64,000 nucleotides of DNA, taken from positions 1 through 64,000 of the forward strand of contig CAKRDT010000005.1 in NCBI GenBank assembly GCA_934316545.1, read 5' to 3'. This document shows positions 10,637 to 63,234 of this stretch, in pieces. The first letter of the stretch is position 1. Each line of letters opens with the position of its first letter. The notes below the pieces were generated by a model that worked only from the letters and a program-made list of their open reading frames with translations, did not search any database and had not been told where the DNA came from. A program made the position numbers and the translations under genes. This stretch comes from an uncultured Agathobacter sp. GTDB taxonomy: Bacteria > Bacillota > Clostridia > Lachnospirales > Lachnospiraceae.

Positions 10637-10902
10637 CTTCTCTCTCCTTTGTCTTTTCTTTGAAATTTCTTCCATTAAAATTTCTTTTTTTCAAGATTTC
10701 CTGTTTCATGTTTGTTTTCCGTCGCTTCGCGTAAATCGAAAAAAAATCTCTGATCGAATTGTTCCATCACGAAAAACATCCCCGATCGGATTGCTCCTTC
10801 GGGGATGTCGTCTGCATATCTTCTGCATCTGCGTATAGGGGATTCTAAAAGAAGTTCCTATACAAAAAAGAGATGCAGAAAGCATCTCTTTGTACACAGA
10901 TA
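10637..10902 (-). other. thiC 5' leader between riboswitch and start codon
   Basis: About 265 bases separate the TPP aptamer from thiC. Reading the minus strand, it holds the riboswitch terminator hairpin (10891-10867) and then a second hairpin, CATCCCCGA / TCGGGGATG (10808-10777), followed by TTTTTCG and later a run of eight T. No convincing leader peptide was found. The leader is longer than a simple riboswitch expression platform needs. Confidence 0.55.
10862..10891 (-). terminator. TPP-riboswitch terminator
   Basis: Minus-strand hairpin AAAGAGATGC-TTTCT-GCATCTCTTT followed by a T-run, 12 bases after the aptamer. It fits a thiamine-dependent transcription terminator for thiC. Confidence 0.8.
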
Positions 10903-10988
10903 TCGCTCCCTACGTTGGCATTATCCAAATCAGGTTTTGGGTCGAAACGATACAGTTCCCTCTCAGCCGACTATGATCAGCTCCCCAT
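10903..10988 (-). ncRNA. TPP (THI-box) riboswitch
   Basis: The minus strand shows the core TPP aptamer strings in order: GGGGAGCTGAT (P1 side), GGCTGAGAGGG (THI box), ACCTGATTTGGATAATGCCA and ACGTAGGGAGC. It lies upstream of thiC, which it is known to control in many bacteria by sensing thiamine pyrophosphate. A terminator hairpin follows. Confidence 0.96.
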
Positions 10989-10996
10989 TTGCTTCT

Positions 10997-11025
10997 ATTT
11001 TACACAAAAACTTCGTTATATTCAA
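10997..11025 (-). promoter_or_regulatory. Promoter of thiC riboswitch transcript
   Basis: Minus-strand TTGAAT (11025-11020), 17-base spacer, TAAAAT (11002-10997). The predicted start is a few bases before the aptamer. Confidence 0.65.
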
Positions 11026-15765: not shown

Positions 15766-16035
15766 ATGAAGAAAGTAAAACAGATCCTTGCCATCATCGG
15801 CATTGTATTTCTCGTTCTCTTATACTTAAGCACACTGATCTGTGCGATCATCGACCGCACAGAAACCATGCGCCTGTTTCAGGCATCCATTATGGCAACC
15901 GTAATTATCCCTGTGTTGCTCTGGGCATACTCATTTATCTACAAGCTCATCAAGAAAAATGCCAAAGACCAGACGGATGAAATGACGAACAACGCTTCTT
16001 TAAAAGATAAAGCGGATCTGTCCAAAAAAGAATAG
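15766..16035 (+). CDS. Small two-helix membrane protein, function unknown
   Basis: The only plus-strand gene supported in the window. It encodes 89 residues with two hydrophobic segments (about 7-27, AIIGIVFLVLLYLSTLICAII, read in part, and about 40-60, ASIMATVIIPVLLWAYSFIY) and a charged, Lys/Asp-rich cytoplasmic-looking tail. The ATG at 15766 has GGAGG seven bases upstream and a good promoter; the frame is open six codons further up without a site. No domain was recognised. The first 52-bp repeat unit begins about 30 bases after its stop codon. Confidence 0.75.
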   Translation: MKKVKQILAIIGIVFLVLLYLSTLICAIIDRTETMRLFQASIMATVIIPVLLWAYSFIYKLIKKNAKDQTDEMTNNASLKDKADLSKKE

Positions 16036-16059: not shown

Positions 16060-16440
16060 TCTGCAGGTCATGCGGTTTCAGCCGTTTGTTTGACCTAAAT
16101 CCTATTTTTTATCTCAGGGTCATGCAGTTCAAGCCTTTTTCTTGACCTGATTCTAGATTTTGTCATTTAGGTCAAGCAATGACTTCTTTTTCCTTGACCT
16201 GATTCTAGATTTTGCCATTTAGGTCAAGGGACGACCTCTTTTTCCTTGACCTGATTCTAGATTTTGTCATTTAGGTCAAGCAATGACCTCTTTTCCCTTG
16301 ACCTGATTCTAGATTTTGCCATTTAGGTCAAGGGACGACCTCTTTTCCCTTGACCTAATTCTAGATTTTGCCATTTAGGTCAAGCAATGACCTCTTTTCC
16401 CTTGACCTGATTCTAAAATTTACGTTCAGGGTCATGCACG
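16060..16440. repeat. 52-bp dyad array I
   Basis: Eight GGTCA boxes start at 16066, 16118, 16170, 16222, 16274, 16326, 16378 and 16430, exactly 52 bp apart. The first seven are the left arm of a 30-bp dyad ending in TGACC; from the third unit the arms are GGTCAAG / CTTGACC. The 22-bp spacers (TGATTCTAGATTTTGYCATTTA) are also conserved. The eighth box is a half-site. It is not a CRISPR, because the spacers are not unique. Confidence 0.95.
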
Positions 16441-16442
16441 CA

Positions 16443-16560
16443 TGCCGGGGCACCCCAATCCTGATTTCGCTTATTGCTAACCCTCTAGATAAAACAAATC
16501 ACGCGCGGTGATAGCTTACATTTATTTGTAAAATAACACCGCGCGTCAATTATTTTTCTT
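16443..16560. repeat. Conserved GC-rich hairpin tail of array I
   Basis: After the last half-site comes GCATGCCGGGGCACCCC, ATCCTGATTTCGCTTATT, then ACAAATCA and a perfect hairpin CGCGCGGTG ... CACCGCGCG (16502-16545) with an inner TTACA / TGTAA stem, followed by TCAATTATTTTTC. The same series is found after array II at 53777-53893. The T-rich end could make it a plus-strand terminator. Confidence 0.85.
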
Positions 16561-16637
16561 ATTAAATTAATTGCTTTCATCGGTTCGTTCCTCATAATAC
16601 TATGAGGCAAAGTTTTGCCAACGAAGTGGTTTTGCCA

Positions 16638-17213
16638 TCATTCCGTTGCATCAACCGATTCCGTCTCCGTACTCTCCTCCTGCACCATCGTATCCGGTGT
16701 CTTCGAGAACGCGTCCTTAAGTGTGGAATCCACAAGATAAATCTTGTCATCACCGCTCACCTTCAGATAATACTCGCTGAGCATCTCGTTGTAATCACCG
16801 ATATCGATTGTGGTTGTCTCATCGCCGCAGATCAAAGTGATCGTATTCTGCGGCTGATCGAGTCCGTAATCCGAAATGGAATCATAATCCGTGATAGCCT
16901 CTGCAGCTGTAACCTTCTTTAAATGCTCAAGAAGCGTTGCGATACTGTCCGCATCCATCTTAAGGGAAGTATCATTCTCACAAATCCATGCATCCCCATC
17001 TTTCGTGTAAGAATACGTCGTACCGTCCGCGATATAAGAAAAGGCATCCACCGCGTCCGGATCAATCACGGTCAGGCTTACCTGCCCCTGTGTCTCGCTG
17101 TCCTTGTCACGCTGTTCCTGCTTTTTCGCATACTGCGTCGCAACGAAATACGCTGCAACGCAGAGAAGAAGGATCACAACAATGACAAGCATTTGAATTT
17201 TCTGCTTTTTCAT
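16638..17213 (-). CDS. DUF4340 domain protein of ABC exporter operon
   Basis: A 191-residue protein with one N-terminal membrane anchor (about 7-26) and an extracytoplasmic domain matching the DUF4340 pattern. It is the third gene of an operon with an ABC ATPase and a GldF/GldG-like permease; DUF4340 proteins are regularly found beside such gliding-type exporters. The ATG at 17213 overlaps the stop of the upstream gene by one base (TAATG), which argues for translational coupling and against the longer frame starting at 17252. Its biochemical role is unknown. Confidence 0.8.
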   Translation of the reverse strand: MKKQKIQMLVIVVILLLCVAAYFVATQYAKKQEQRDKDSETQGQVSLTVIDPDAVDAFSYIADGTTYSYTKDGDAWICENDTSLKMDADSIATLLEHLKKVTAAEAITDYDSISDYGLDQPQNTITLICGDETTTIDIGDYNEMLSEYYLKVSGDDKIYLVDSTLKDAFSKTPDTMVQEESTETESVDATE

Positions 17214-20361: not shown

Positions 20362-20542
20362 TGTGAAAACCTCCTTTTTTTATTCGTATTACTAAGCGTT
20401 TCCAAACTCCTGCGGCGGCTCTGTCGGCTCCGCAGTCAGAGTTTTACAATCGCCTAATTCGTGTTACACTCCATACGTTATAGTCTATGCATATCTCATG
20501 TGTAAATTATGGTGAAAATGTGTTAATTTTGTGAACATTGTC
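20362..20542. other. Upstream region of ABC exporter operon
   Basis: About 180 bases without a gene. Positions 20395-20456 contain a GC-rich imperfect inverted repeat (AAACTCCTGCGGCGG facing CCGCAGTCAGAGTTT) ending in CAATCGCCTA, which partly resembles the sequence at 95-125. No clear -35/-10 pair was identified for the operon. Confidence 0.3.
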
Positions 20543-20772
20543 ATGAGGAGGGGCCCACCGCAGGTGGGAGGAGTCCTGATGACCACCCATGAGGAGGGGC
20601 CCACCGCAGGTGGGAGGAGTCCTGATGACCACCCATGAGGAGGGGCCCACCGCAGGTGGGAGGAGTCCTGATGACCACCCATGAGGAGGGGCTCACCGCA
20701 GGTGGGAGGAGTCCTGATGACCACCCATGAGGAGGGGCTCACCGCAGGTGGGAGGAGTCCTGATGACCACCC
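20543..20772. repeat. 46-bp tandem repeat, five copies
   Basis: Five consecutive 46-bp units start at 20543, 20589, 20635, 20681 and 20727. Units are identical except that GGGCCCACC becomes GGGCTCACC in the last two. Each unit contains CCCACC-GCA-GGTGGG, a compact hairpin, in the first three copies perfect. Because 46 is not a multiple of three the long minus-strand reading frame across it is not a gene. Confidence 0.97.
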
Positions 20773-20795
20773 ATAGGAAGGAATTTCCTTCCTAT
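20773..20795. repeat. ATAGGAA palindrome, copy 4
   Basis: Perfect palindrome ATAGGAAGGAA-T-TTCCTTCCTAT between the 46-bp repeats and the purA terminator. It is a variant of the ATAGGAA elements at 1632, 2345 and 43506, again directly after a terminator T-run on the minus strand. Confidence 0.8.
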
Positions 20796-43395: not shown

Positions 43396-43396
43396 A

Positions 43397-43493
43397 AATA
43401 AAGTGTGCGCCTGCCGCACACTTTCGCGCGCGAGCGGTATATTCCATATAAACTTCATCTCCGCGAGCTGCGCATCCCCGCGGAGCGTTTTTA
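43397..43493. repeat. 97-bp GC-rich repeat, copy B
   Basis: Matches 2254-2350 at 94 of 97 positions, including both inner stems. It is followed by a 14-bp partly duplicated GCGTTTTTT segment and then ATAGGAA palindrome copy 3. Confidence 0.85.
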
Positions 43494-43505
43494 ATTAGGC
43501 GTTTT

Positions 43506-43536
43506 TTAATCATAGGAAGGAATTTCCTATGATTCA
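43506..43536. repeat. ATAGGAA palindrome, copy 3, carrying a stop codon
   Basis: Palindrome TTAATCATAGGAA-GGAAT-TTCCTATGATTCAA. The TGA stop of the M14 carboxypeptidase gene (43536-43534) lies inside its right arm, so the element forms the end of that gene. Confidence 0.8.
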
Positions 43537-45051
43537 AGAAATCGCTTTCGTGATCTTTAAAACAACGTTCTTGTTTTTTAAAAATTCTGTCTTATATTCA
43601 TAGTAGGAACAAGGCGCCCATGTCTTTCCGACTTCGATCGTGATCGACGGAATTCCAAGCAGATACATCACATATTCCCGGTACTGTCCTCCCGGAGATT
43701 TCGTCTTTGAGGACTCCGGCGCCGCTATATAATTCGTTTCCCTTTTTGCGATCTGGTACATGGTTTTTGTATCTTTCGCGATTTTCTTTGACGAACAGCT
43801 TCCGTATATAATCCGCCCCATGGCATGATAATTGATCACGCCCTGCAGCTTCTGTTTCGTTTTCAATTTCACCGTAAGCGCAGCGATAGCCCGCGATTCC
43901 GGCTCGCTCAATGCCTTTTTCCCCGAATAGCCTTCTGCACCCTTTGTGCCTCCGGAAACAAATTTCTTAATCGGGAAGTTGCGGTTTAGATCGACGCCCC
44001 GCGCATTGGATTTCCATCTTGCATAAGATTTCTGCGAGATTTCGACACCATCCGGATTGGCCATCACTACATAGTGAATCTGTGTGTTTTCCAGGACATC
44101 CGCCGGCTTTATGCCGCCGATCCTATGATTGTAATTGCACAGATAATACTCAATTTCCTGCATCAACACTGCCACGCAGATATACTCGCGGGCATGCAGC
44201 GTTCCCACAACCAGAACCGAAGCATCCGCATCCGGGCTGCCGATGGTAAAATCGTAGAGGCTGCGTCCCTTCACCGATGAACCGATCTCCGTCATTTCAC
44301 AATAATCGCTGTACTTGCTCTTCAACATTTTCATCTGCTGCTTCATCTGCGCATAGGTATACTTTTGCGATGCGATCTTTACGATTGCCGCATTGGAAAA
44401 GGCGATCGTAGCTGCCTCTCCCTCCTGATCAAGAGTATTGTATGCAACGATTTTGTAATGATAGTTCTTTCCTTCCTTGATTTTCTTATCGGTATAGGAA
44501 GGCTTCTCTGCCGTCGCAAGTTTATGGTATGCTCCGCTCCCCTGCTTACGGTAGATCGTATAGGCTGCGGCGTTCTCACATGCATTCCACTCGATTTTAA
44601 CTTTTGTCTGCGTCTGTGACGTTGTACGAAGTCCGGTAATCTTTGAAGGAACCGGGACGGGCTGATCCGCATCATCCTGATTCGAGTCATCCTGATTTAC
44701 GCCGTCCTGATTCATGCCATCCTGATTTGTGCCATTCTGATCCGCGCTATTCTGTTCCGCGCCATTCTGATCCGTGCCATTTTGATCCGCGCCATTCTGT
44801 TCCGTGTCATTTTGATCCGCGCTATTCTGTTCCGCGCCATTTTGATTCGCGCCATTCTGATTTGTGCTATTCTGATTTGCGCTATTCTGATTTGCGCTAT
44901 TCTGTTCCGCGCTATTCTGATTTGCGCTATTCTGTTCCGCGCTATTCTGATTTGAAGCTTCCTGTAGCGGTTTCTGCGCTGCATAAGCCGGCTGCACCTG
45001 CAACAACATGGTTACAGCAAGTACTGAGCATAAAATCTTTGTTATTTTCAC
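43534..45051 (-). CDS. Secreted M14 zinc carboxypeptidase with XQNXX repeat tract
   Basis: A 505-residue exported protein: signal peptide (KILCSVLAVTMLLQVQPAYA), then about 95 residues of 19 consecutive pentapeptides of type [N/E/D]QN[S/G][A/T], a fibronectin type III domain (about 140-225), and an M14 carboxypeptidase domain. Zinc ligands are HAREY (HxxE) and the His in INYHAMG; NARGVDLNRNFP binds substrate and TIEVG holds the catalytic Glu. Such enzymes trim peptides or peptidoglycan stems outside the cell. The start is a GTG at 45051 with GAGAGGAAG upstream. The last codon and stop fall in a repeat element. Confidence 0.9.
   Translation of the reverse strand: MKITKILCSVLAVTMLLQVQPAYAAQKPLQEASNQNSAEQNSANQNSAEQNSANQNSANQNSTNQNGANQNGAEQNSADQNDTEQNGADQNGTDQNGAEQNSADQNGTNQDGMNQDGVNQDDSNQDDADQPVPVPSKITGLRTTSQTQTKVKIEWNACENAAAYTIYRKQGSGAYHKLATAEKPSYTDKKIKEGKNYHYKIVAYNTLDQEGEAATIAFSNAAIVKIASQKYTYAQMKQQMKMLKSKYSDYCEMTEIGSSVKGRSLYDFTIGSPDADASVLVVGTLHAREYICVAVLMQEIEYYLCNYNHRIGGIKPADVLENTQIHYVVMANPDGVEISQKSYARWKSNARGVDLNRNFPIKKFVSGGTKGAEGYSGKKALSEPESRAIAALTVKLKTKQKLQGVINYHAMGRIIYGSCSSKKIAKDTKTMYQIAKRETNYIAAPESSKTKSPGGQYREYVMYLLGIPSITIEVGKTWAPCSYYEYKTEFLKNKNVVLKITKAIS
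44672..44957. repeat. 15-bp coding repeat of M14 protein
   Basis: About 19 tandem 15-bp units of the form RTTYTGATYYGCGCYA (plus-strand view), encoding the XQNXX pentapeptides. Because 15 is a multiple of three the pattern also keeps frames open on the other strand and in other phases. Confidence 0.9.
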
Positions 45052-53212: not shown

Positions 53213-53539
53213 ATTCTCCTCTTTCCTTTCTTCTATATTCTATTATGTTAAACAGATTGTATTTGCCACTACGCCCTTCAACACACCGGCATATACAGTC
53301 TGAAAAACAATTTTACATAGTAATTGTAACAACTATAAACCTCATTATGGTGTGCTAGATTGCACACTTTGTAAAAAAAATCTGAAAAAAATAAAGAGCG
53401 CCCAGATTTTTCTGAATGCTCTTGATATACCAGCTTATTTTTGCTATGAAATATACAACAGATTAGCCACAGTAAACTACTGTCAATCTGTATTCGTTTG
53501 TGAGATATATGGTAAAATTGATCCTATTCCCATTTTTTT
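53213..53539. other. Upstream region of 1947-residue gene
   Basis: About 330 bases. GAGGAG precedes the start codon. A TATTATG/ATAAT-like -10 is possible near 53235-53250, but no good -35 was found. Nothing else was recognised before the repeat array begins. Confidence 0.35.
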
Positions 53540-53706
53540 CTGTAGGTCATGTCCTCCCCTGCTTTCACTTGACCTGGATCTTATTTTTCTCCTGTAGGTC
53601 ATGGTCGCTCCTATTTCCACATGACCCAGATAGCATTTTTCTCCTGTAGGTCATAGCCTTCCCTGTTTCCACATGACCCAATAGTCAAATTTTCTCTCAG
53701 GGTCAT
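53540..53706. repeat. 52-bp dyad array II
   Basis: GGTCAT boxes at 53545, 53597, 53649 and 53701 are spaced exactly 52 bp. The first three open 30-bp dyads ending in TTGACC or ATGACC; in unit 2 the arms are GGTCATG / CATGACC. The fourth is a half-site. Spacers share TTATTTTTCTCCTGTA-like text. The same plan is seen in array I. Confidence 0.93.
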
Positions 53707-53776: not shown

Positions 53777-53893
53777 CGCATGCCGAGCCCCATCCTTATT
53801 CCGCTTGTTCGATGACACTTTACACAAAACAAATCACGCGCGGCGAAATCTTACATTTATTTGTAGAATAACACCGCGCGTCAATTATTTTAT
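53777..53893. repeat. Conserved GC-rich hairpin tail of array II
   Basis: Shares with the array I tail the series GCATGCCG, CCCC-ATCCT-ATT-CGCTT-TT, AAAACAAATCACGCGCGG, TTACATTTATTTGTA and ACACCGCGCGTCAATTATTTT. The hairpin runs from 53837 to 53880; the arms are CGCGCGGCG and CACCGCGCG, one mismatch on this strand. Confidence 0.85.
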
Positions 53894-54104
53894 TCATAAA
53901 GTCAATCCGTTCCATTAAATATGACCATCATTTTCATTTATTATAGCAATTAATTCCGTCTATTTTGACAACCATTAATCTAACCATTTTTTCTTACTAT
54001 AAGGCAAACATTTGTCGTTGTATCAGATAAACATTTTTAATATACAGATACCGGATATAAAAAAGAAAATTAGCAGTAAACATATTCAACCAACAGGATT
54101 TTAG
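53894..54104. other. A/T-rich intergenic, nothing recognised
   Basis: About 210 bases of A/T-rich sequence between the array II tail and the long inverted repeat. No frame, promoter or RNA was supported. Confidence 0.35.
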
Positions 54105-61680: not shown

Positions 61681-61835
61681 CGATTTTTCTGTTTTTCTTA
61701 CAGTTTTCAATCTTCTTCCGGATTTTCTGTTTTACCTGCGTTTTCATCCTTCTTCCAGATTTTCTGTTTTACTTGCAGGTTTCATCCTTCTTCCGGGTTT
61801 TCTGTTTTACCTGCGTTTTCATCCTGCCTTCAAAC
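61681..61835. repeat. 37-38-bp tandem repeat, four copies
   Basis: Units of the form TTTTCTGTTTTACCTGCGTTTTCATCCTTCTTCCRG, pyrimidine-rich on the plus strand, lie in the gap (61606-62006) between the DUF3877 gene and the nuclease-like gene. The array has no internal dyad comparable to the 52-bp arrays. Nothing else was recognised in the gap. Confidence 0.75.
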
Positions 61836-62006: not shown

Positions 62007-62792
62007 CTATACGAAATATTCTTTTATCATTTGTTCAATGGTTTCGATATCCAATGGACTTTCCTTGGTTTCATAGGTAAGAATCAAATTGACCGACGGA
62101 ACGATTCCATTCCTGCAATACAATTTTATTTTGTTACAGGCATTTGCGATATAATCAGGATTGTCCATCATTCCCATATGTTCCCAATAATAAATCTTGC
62201 CATTACGCGGATGTCGGATTGTAAAATCCGGATGTATTGTTGTATTTCCCAAAACCAATTTCTGTTCGTAACGAAAAGGAATTCCATAACTGTAAAGTAA
62301 TTTATCAATGATAGCCTCCGATTTTGACCGTACAAAGCGTCCCTGTGTCGCCTTAATGTTACGTGTTTCCGGATGATCATTATTCGTCTCAAAATCTTCC
62401 TCCATCCATTTCTTAAGTTCTTTACTTGCGGAACAAAATTGCCCATCCAATAAACGTACATATTCATCATGCGCCATCATTTGTTCCGTCTTATTTCTCG
62501 CCATCTCCGCAAATCCAATGTATTCCTGGCACGCTCTCAATTCCAGTTCAAGTTCCTCCATCTGATATTGATAGTACTTTTTTAAAGCAAGCTGCCGCGC
62601 CAGATCTTTCTGCTTTTTGGATAGGTAATTTGTTTTTCCATCATACTTCACATACCATTTATACGCATTATTGTTTTTGGCAACGATAATTTCTCCCTCC
62701 GGAAACGATTTTCCCATTTGTTCATATTTTTTCAGTTCACTCTCTATGTATTCGATGCGTTTTCGTATTTTCACTTCATTTTCAAACATCAT
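62007..62792 (-). CDS. Putative PD-(D/E)XK nuclease-fold protein
   Basis: A 261-residue protein not assigned to a named family. Residues 1-130 are charged and helical (coiled coil likely near 10-30 and 70-95). Residues about 145-240 read like a PD-(D/E)XK or VSR/DUF559-type nuclease core: RSKSEAIIDKLLYSYGIPFRYE supplies a Glu (string read in part), then HPDFTIRHP the Asp, and YYWEHMGMMDNPDY a Glu-His pair in place of E-x-K. It could cleave DNA or be an inactive relative. GAGGG stands before the ATG. The third hairpin array lies directly upstream, in what would be its leader. Confidence 0.55.
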   Translation of the reverse strand: MMFENEVKIRKRIEYIESELKKYEQMGKSFPEGEIIVAKNNNAYKWYVKYDGKTNYLSKKQKDLARQLALKKYYQYQMEELELELRACQEYIGFAEMARNKTEQMMAHDEYVRLLDGQFCSASKELKKWMEEDFETNNDHPETRNIKATQGRFVRSKSEAIIDKLLYSYGIPFRYEQKLVLGNTTIHPDFTIRHPRNGKIYYWEHMGMMDNPDYIANACNKIKLYCRNGIVPSVNLILTYETKESPLDIETIEQMIKEYFV

Positions 62793-62816: not shown

Positions 62817-63209
62817 GGGTATAGGATCTCATTTTCCGTTCCTGTACCCTTGTTCACTTTCCATTTTGGGTATATTTTCAGTTTTTTCTGCTCCTGTACC
62901 CTTGTTCACTTTCCATTTTGGGTATATTTTCAGTTTTTTCTGCTCCTGTACCCTTGTTCACTTTCCATTTTGGGTATATTTTCAGTTTTTCCGCTCCTAT
63001 ACCCTTATTCACTTTCCATTTTGGGTATATTTTCAGTCTTTTCCGCTCCTATACCCTTGTTCACTTTCCATTTTGGGTATATTTTCAGTTTTTTCGCTCT
63101 CATACCCTTTTTGCACTTTTCAAGAGGGTATATTTTCAGTTTTTTCTGCTCCTATACCCTTTTTGCACTTTTCAAGAGGGTATATCGCCGGTTTTTCTTT
63201 TCCTATACC
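62817..63209. repeat. 51-52-bp dyad array III
   Basis: Eight dyads GGGTATA ... TACCC (33-34 bp) with TACCC at 62845, 62897, 62949, 63000, 63052, 63103, 63154 and 63205, so spacing is 52, 52, 51, 52, 51, 51, 51. Spacers are TTGTTCACTTTCCATTTT in the first units and TTTTTGCACTTTTCAAGA in the last. The sequence is unrelated to arrays I and II but the pitch is the same. It fills the gap between the ComEC-like gene and the nuclease-like gene. Confidence 0.93.
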
Positions 63210-63234
63210 CTTTTCAAGTTTGCTCGATACACCT

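Follow-up and report, generated by a model that had tools for sequence, protein, structure and literature searches.

Background

In type III toxin-antitoxin systems (toxIN), a nuclease gene has an upstream array of repeats that are specific to its enzyme. Iterons and other helically phased operator arrays place several protein sites at whole turns of the helix, where they are bound cooperatively. REPINs are dispersed inverted-repeat elements located between genes, with clusters beside one RAYT gene per repeat type; a genome may carry several distinct RAYTs, each with its own repeat, the repeats form tandem clusters, and their spread in trans by the enzyme has been proposed (PMC3116915; PMC8049555). 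We describe here a class of inverted-repeat (dyad) arrays, represented three times in a window of 64,000 nucleotides (the whole stretch of DNA analyzed) from an uncultured Agathobacter sp. and found beside homologous genes in other genomes. The half-sites of these arrays repeat at whole turns of the DNA helix, and the adjoining genes encode an unnamed protein whose C-terminal domain is PD-(D/E)XK-like. The arrangement has the appearance of a partnership, so far undescribed, between an enzyme that binds DNA and repeats that spread as a family.

Arrays in the Agathobacter window

The array first noticed in this window (16066-16434, plus strand) has eight GGTCA boxes, starting at 16066, 16118, 16170, 16222, 16274, 16326, 16378 and 16430. 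An earlier note on this DNA claimed a spacing of 52 bp with no deviation, and each of the seven steps is indeed exactly 52 bp. The first seven boxes form complete 30-bp dyads of the form GGTCA-N20-TGACC, with TGACC starting 25 bp after GGTCA, and the eighth is unpaired, as expected from the closing half-site already described. The longer form GGTCAAG-N16-CTTGACC had been attributed to all seven dyads but is present in units 3-7 only; unit 1 reads GGTCATG...TTTGACC and unit 2 GGTCATG...CTTGACC. Likewise, the spacers that had been called conserved are constant in length (22 bp) but similar in sequence only among the inner units, in which tandem duplication is visible; a 104-bp super-period runs through them. 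An open reading frame (ORF) on the plus strand ends at 16035 on one side of the array, and a minus-strand gene has its 3' end at 16638 on the other.

The first array is one case of a wider system, and the window holds two further dyad arrays. A second GGTCA/TGACC array (53545-53705, plus strand) consists of three full dyads at a 52-bp pitch and closes with a half-site at 53701; a degenerate TGATCC at 53519 may be its first site. It has the same 20- and 22-bp gaps as the first array with different filler, and is flanked by two minus-strand genes. The pattern GGTCA-N16-24-TGACC-N16-28-GGTCA matches 18 times in the window, counting both strands and both GGTCA arrays, while shuffled sequences gave a mean of 0.02 matches and at most 1. 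The third array, GGGTATA/TATACCC (62817-63210, minus strand), has a pitch of 51-52 bp and lies directly 5' of a minus-strand gene (62007-62792) for a 261-residue unnamed protein with the PD-(D/E)XK-like domain. We presume that this protein is the partner of the TATACCC array and not of the GGTCA arrays.

Each GGTCA array is followed by a 101-bp stretch (16480-16580 and 53815-53915, 82% alike) that contains a CGCGCGG...CCGCGCG hairpin and a T run and resembles a terminator; it may be a separate repeat or a piece of the array unit.

Spacing of the arrays

Beside homologous genes we collected 71 arrays, belonging to 67 genes, some of which have several. Their pitch is about 53, 63, 73 or 84 bp, with one array each at 94 and 107 bp, corresponding to 5, 6, 7 or 8 helical turns and, for the single cases, 9 and 10. 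The mean values are 52.8 bp (30 arrays from 12 clusters of the adjoining enzyme), 63.0 bp (17 from 10), 73.1 bp (15 from 11) and 84.3 bp (7 from 6), with the single arrays at 94.0 and 107.3 bp; the last, of 10 turns, may be a doubled 5-turn step. Over all 71 arrays, the pitch is fitted by 10.47n + 0.24. The best period is 10.55 bp for the whole set (R 0.838), 10.4 bp when one array is taken from each of the 35 enzyme clusters (R 0.844), and 10.85 bp for the 41 arrays outside the five-turn group (R 0.791). With a null smoothed by 5 bp, the observed value was reached in 0 of 20000 draws for all three sets. The earlier note had proposed helical phasing from a single array; related arrays could have shown non-phased spacing, and instead all 71 lie at whole turns.

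The most direct evidence for this spacing law comes from pairs of arrays that share a core word and differ in one spacer. L157 and L158 (core GCATCA, enzymes 66% identical) have spacers of 29/33 and 29/44 bp, a change of 11 bp. In L165 and L175 (core GGTACA, enzymes 78% identical) the spacers are 53/31 and 42/31-32 bp, a change of 10-11 bp, and in L240 and L263 (core CGTTGC, enzymes 41% identical) they are 33/29 and 54/30 bp, a change of 21-22 bp. The other spacer stays within about 1 bp in these pairs. The arrays of L158 and L263 each contain one spacer that is 10 bp off within the single array. Since the pitch takes whole turns and enzymes with the same core can differ by one turn in one spacer, we conclude that the sites work as duplex DNA.

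Linkage to genes for the nuclease-like protein

The linkage set comprised 143 genes, with genes sharing the last 120 residues counted once; it includes the homologues from the window, L014, L015 and G001-G004, which were found through their arrays and are biased in that respect. Our strict detector searched 1-kb flanks for one 6-mer whose copies alternate in orientation, requiring that three or more spacings between copies of like orientation agree to within 1 bp; flanks shorter than 250 bp were left unscored (10 upstream, 2 downstream). Arrays were detected on the upstream side for 60 of 133 genes and on the downstream side for 11 of 141, an arrangement that resembles the placement of REPINs next to RAYT genes; dinucleotide-shuffled flanks gave none on either side (0/274 in all). 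Restricted to the family sample, the counts are 56 of 130 genes with an array upstream and 10 with one downstream. Within 60 regions, taken from the best-scoring matches of the evenly drawn family sample, an array lies within 1 kb upstream of 29 of 56 enzyme genes, compared to 0 of 300 control genes (other genes of the same regions, more than 3 kb from the enzyme gene). The final site of the upstream arrays is a median of 99 bp ahead of the predicted start. These counts are lower bounds, because exact 6-mers overlook degenerate arrays. Many contigs of the sampled genomes stop at or close to the gene or array. Enzyme genes without any array may well exist.

The tandem duplication in the inner units is what would be expected of an ordinary tandem repeat or a chance pattern with no function. 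Such an origin is contradicted by the pitch steps and by the controls just given: the same 10.5-bp steps, the same alternation and the same gene linkage recur across arrays with different cores and filler. We consider it extremely improbable. A CRISPR array was rejected as well, on the grounds that the half-sites alternate in orientation, the spacers are alike within arrays, and no neighboring gene occurs at more than 9 of 60 loci.

A search for two successive GGTCA dyads, with one genome per species, gave 17 stretches, of which one is an unrelated repeat in Halomonas and 16 are in four metagenome-assembled genomes: Agathobacter SUG778 (2), Eubacteriales S19M_St_18 (9), Lachnospiraceae RGIG5612 (4) and RGIG9612 (1). 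In a relative (L014), two GGTCA arrays lie on either side of a homologue gene whose product is 30% identical to the product of 62007-62792. For the GGTCA arrays of the window we predict a separate enzyme, encoded in another part of the host genome. Searches of the four genomes yielded 12 homologues. By eye and with Tandem Repeats Finder, a whole or partial dyad array, mostly with a different word, was seen beside 10 of the 12; of the other two, one is at a contig end and one is a fragment that fell outside the inspection.

The protein family

Of 397 genomes drawn, at one genome per species, from the family of Agathobacter G001, hence the Lachnospiraceae, 140 encode homologues (E 1e-5), with up to 7 per genome; in 14 of the 140 the best E-value is above 1e-10. 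The family comprises 2759 database proteins at E 0.001. Pfam and NCBIfam scans gave it no family name, and no precomputed Pfam domain is present among the 120 family proteins listed. A Pfam scan of 121 members (E 0.01) returned eight families, each in at most two members and none of them a transposase; together with the fold of the C-terminal domain, this led us to reject a Y1/HUH transposase identity.

The predicted model (mean pLDDT 87.1, pTM 0.54) runs from a helix through a three-stranded beta part and a long helix to a C-terminal alpha/beta domain. Structure comparison of the C-terminal domain placed it closest to the restriction-endonuclease-fold proteins 3hrl, Bax1, VRR_NUC and Hjc, with middling Z-scores. 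Residues including E159, D189, E204 and H205 are invariant in 121 family sequences. The domain is PD-(D/E)XK-like, and the protein a putative nuclease. A 38-bp tandem repeat lies on the 3' side of its gene in the window (61685-61825), where the detector gave no dyad array.

The C-terminal domain also matches the C-terminus of PDC-S68, a PADLOC model of a phage-defence candidate, in all 11 members scanned (best E 3.9e-31), which invites the suggestion that the enzyme attacks foreign DNA, with the host arrays marking self or restraining the enzyme. The nuclease-like domain is, however, all that the two have in common: PDC-S68 models are about 1200 residues long, and the match leaves out the N-terminal part of the family described here. 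We know of no array associated with PDC-S68. There is also no constant partner gene, the largest family of neighboring proteins being common to 9 of 60 loci, and invading DNA would lack arrays anyway, which leaves the rule of attack unspecified. A defence role is accordingly improbable.

Genes that we take to encode ribosomal proteins S9 and L13 adjoin the homologues at L014:5109-5992, L126, L128, L129, L134, L136, L138 and L140; the presumed L13 gene is beside the enzyme at 7 of 60 loci and also at L014. The four of these homologues with strict arrays (L014, L126, L129 and L138) have four different core words. Enzyme and core may change fast enough for enzymes next to the same ribosomal protein gene in different species to have different words. 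Core similarity follows enzyme identity, averaging 0.711 for the 7 pairs at or above 65% identity and 0.31 for the 1412 pairs below 45%; a permutation over 55 arrays reached this in 0 of 10000 trials.

DNA or RNA

The repeats lie upstream of a nuclease-like gene, as in toxI-toxN, so the arrays might be transcribed as chains of hairpins that serve as substrates or antitoxins of an RNA-cutting enzyme. The 10.5-bp pitch steps at four main levels argue against this. Compensation between the arms is scarce: a change from the core in one arm is balanced by a matching change in its partner in only 59 of 718 and 58 of 704 cells. The count admits half-sites carrying as many as two mismatches, and some of these half-sites could be fortuitous. 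Mispairs of the G.T and A.C kinds number 91 and 80 in all (50 and 41 by column), and individual arrays are often dominated by one of the two kinds (chi-square 67.2, p 1.3e-7, for the 18 arrays with four or more mispairs; of the column pairs, 63 are concordant and 21 discordant). This lean could favor RNA, but it is confounded, because a single mutation is copied by tandem duplication and every half-site belongs to two dyads, and we weigh it neither for nor against RNA. Dispersed arrays also lie between divergent genes. Taken together, an RNA role appears very improbable. The preference of the earlier note for cooperative protein binding is supported by the phased pitch, the low arm compensation and the gene orientations, with binding and a dimeric protein themselves being inferred.

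Dispersal of the arrays

Four core patterns were searched in the same eight genomes, and each matched its own genome only, with no matches for reversed controls. Forward and reverse matches were 67 and 72 for ACGTAC in G301, 50 and 49 for ACGGAC in G184, 14 and 16 for GGGTAC in G105, and 8 and 8 for GGCTAA in G228; because the patterns are nearly self-complementary, the two counts in each case refer to one set of arrays. In G001-G004, which had been picked for having arrays, the GGTCA pattern matched 16 to 78 times per strand, with 0 or 1 for controls. All four cores occur at dispersed loci with related filler, on 2 to at least 6 contigs of their own genome, and so resemble REPINs in that one repeat type is scattered between the genes of one genome. 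Of 21 dispersed arrays, 17 are not overlapped by any called ORF of at least 90 residues. Clean neighbors on both sides were seen for 14 of the 21 checked, and the flanking genes are tandem in 10 cases, convergent in 2 and divergent in 2. The arrays are therefore not simply 3' untranslated regions, an alternative that the earlier note had raised.

Occupancy varies between relatives. The G184 array at L324 starts beside an element that, from its sequence, we take to be FMN-riboswitch-like; no array was seen within 1200 bp past this element in any of the 15 relatives compared, whose far flank is non-syntenic. At one G301 site, the relative G795 has other repeats and no ACGTAC array between matching flanks, as read across two contigs overlapped by eye; the contig of another relative, G794, stops there. 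Gain and loss of an array cannot be told apart at such sites. Array-less places were found for comparison with the ends and target-site duplications of miniature inverted-repeat transposable elements, but the array ends could not be placed because the flanks were too diverged or the contigs broken. Just before one G301 array (L328:2412-2491) is an element of about 80 bp with many copies in G301 and weaker ones in two congeners, another dispersed repeat adjoining an array.

It is conceivable that the phased sites serve a regulatory or chromosome-organizing binding protein, and that the arrays are kept by host selection, with slippage and local recombination as their sole means of expansion. Helical phasing and an array upstream of the protein's own gene fit this explanation, as does the local tandem duplication evident from the super-period and the resemblance of units within an array; the enzymes beside the presumed L13 gene would suggest stable inheritance. 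On the other hand, a pure binding protein has no need of nuclease-like residues that are invariant in 121 sequences, each of four cores is scattered, with related filler, over separate loci of a single genome, and arrays are absent at the same place in relatives. We regard an explanation with no mobility as unlikely, though deserving of more weight than those discussed above.

A proposed mechanism and its relation to known systems

In the explanation we favor, each array would be a series of half-sites in duplex DNA, recognized by a cognate protein from a single family whose members combine an N-terminal part of helices and beta structure with the PD-(D/E)XK-like C-terminal domain. Protein copies would occupy neighboring half-sites on the same face of the helix and touch one another; such contacts would account for half-sites that alternate, and repeat at whole turns, despite changes in core and filler. 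The array often present upstream of the protein's own gene probably allows autoregulation, while others are dispersed between genes. The enzyme may nick or cut inside bound arrays, and repair might then enlarge the arrays in place and sometimes copy them to other sites, so that enzyme and arrays would act like a RAYT and its REPINs, with an unrelated enzyme. That the arrays are bound cooperatively on one face of the DNA by this protein is, taken alone, highly probable. Spread of the arrays by the enzyme, to which we give somewhat less than even odds, and cleavage as a step in it are hypotheses. The combined picture, phased arrays bound by a cognate nuclease-like protein with REPIN-like spread, we hold to be reasonably probable.

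If this is correct, the system might represent a new class of intragenomic replicator, in which a PD-(D/E)XK-type enzyme assembles on helix-phased arrays, nicks or cuts them, expands them and copies them, and in which the core word evolves rapidly along with the enzyme, the helical register being preserved. We put this forward as a possibility, at somewhat less than even chance.

The type III toxin-antitoxin systems share a nuclease-like gene with an upstream repeat array, but the repeats described here are inverted, helix-phased and dispersed at many loci, and also occur downstream of the gene and between divergent genes. Iterons and phased operator arrays each sit at a single locus that controls a replicon or operon, whereas here there are many arrays per genome and each type has its own nuclease-like gene. 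The differences from REPINs lie in the enzyme family and in the unit, here an extended array whose half-sites alternate in orientation at whole turns of the helix; the available text of PMC3116915 and PMC8049555 gives tandem REP spacings and no helical rule. No description of an array-enzyme system of this kind was found in the titles and abstract openings of the open-licence literature searched.

The analysis ties a large unnamed protein family to a class of repeats and reveals a whole-turn spacing law that is visible from sequence alone. Cooperative binding on one helical face thereby becomes testable, and the many enzyme and core pairs offer material for decoding DNA specificity. A second, unrelated case of the RAYT/REPIN type would allow the persistence of repeat populations to be compared across enzymes.

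Other repeats and elements

Several other elements were seen in passing. An interspersed repeat at 2253-2384 and 43396-43541 of the window is 97% alike over 99 bp and continues into the palindrome AATCATAGGAAGGAATTTCCTATGATT, which occurs a third time at 1628-1670. At 20542-20778 there is a 46-bp tandem array (5.2 copies, 98% matches) with GGTGG/CCACC inverted parts, whose pitch is not a whole number of turns, and about 19 copies of a 15-bp unit lie at 44662-44952. A thiamine pyrophosphate (TPP) riboswitch is located at 10893-10997 on the minus strand (56.2 bits, against a gathering score of 54.3). In Halomonas, an unrelated genus, L010:660-830 has GGGGTCAGACCCC palindromes at a repeat of about 52-53 bp.
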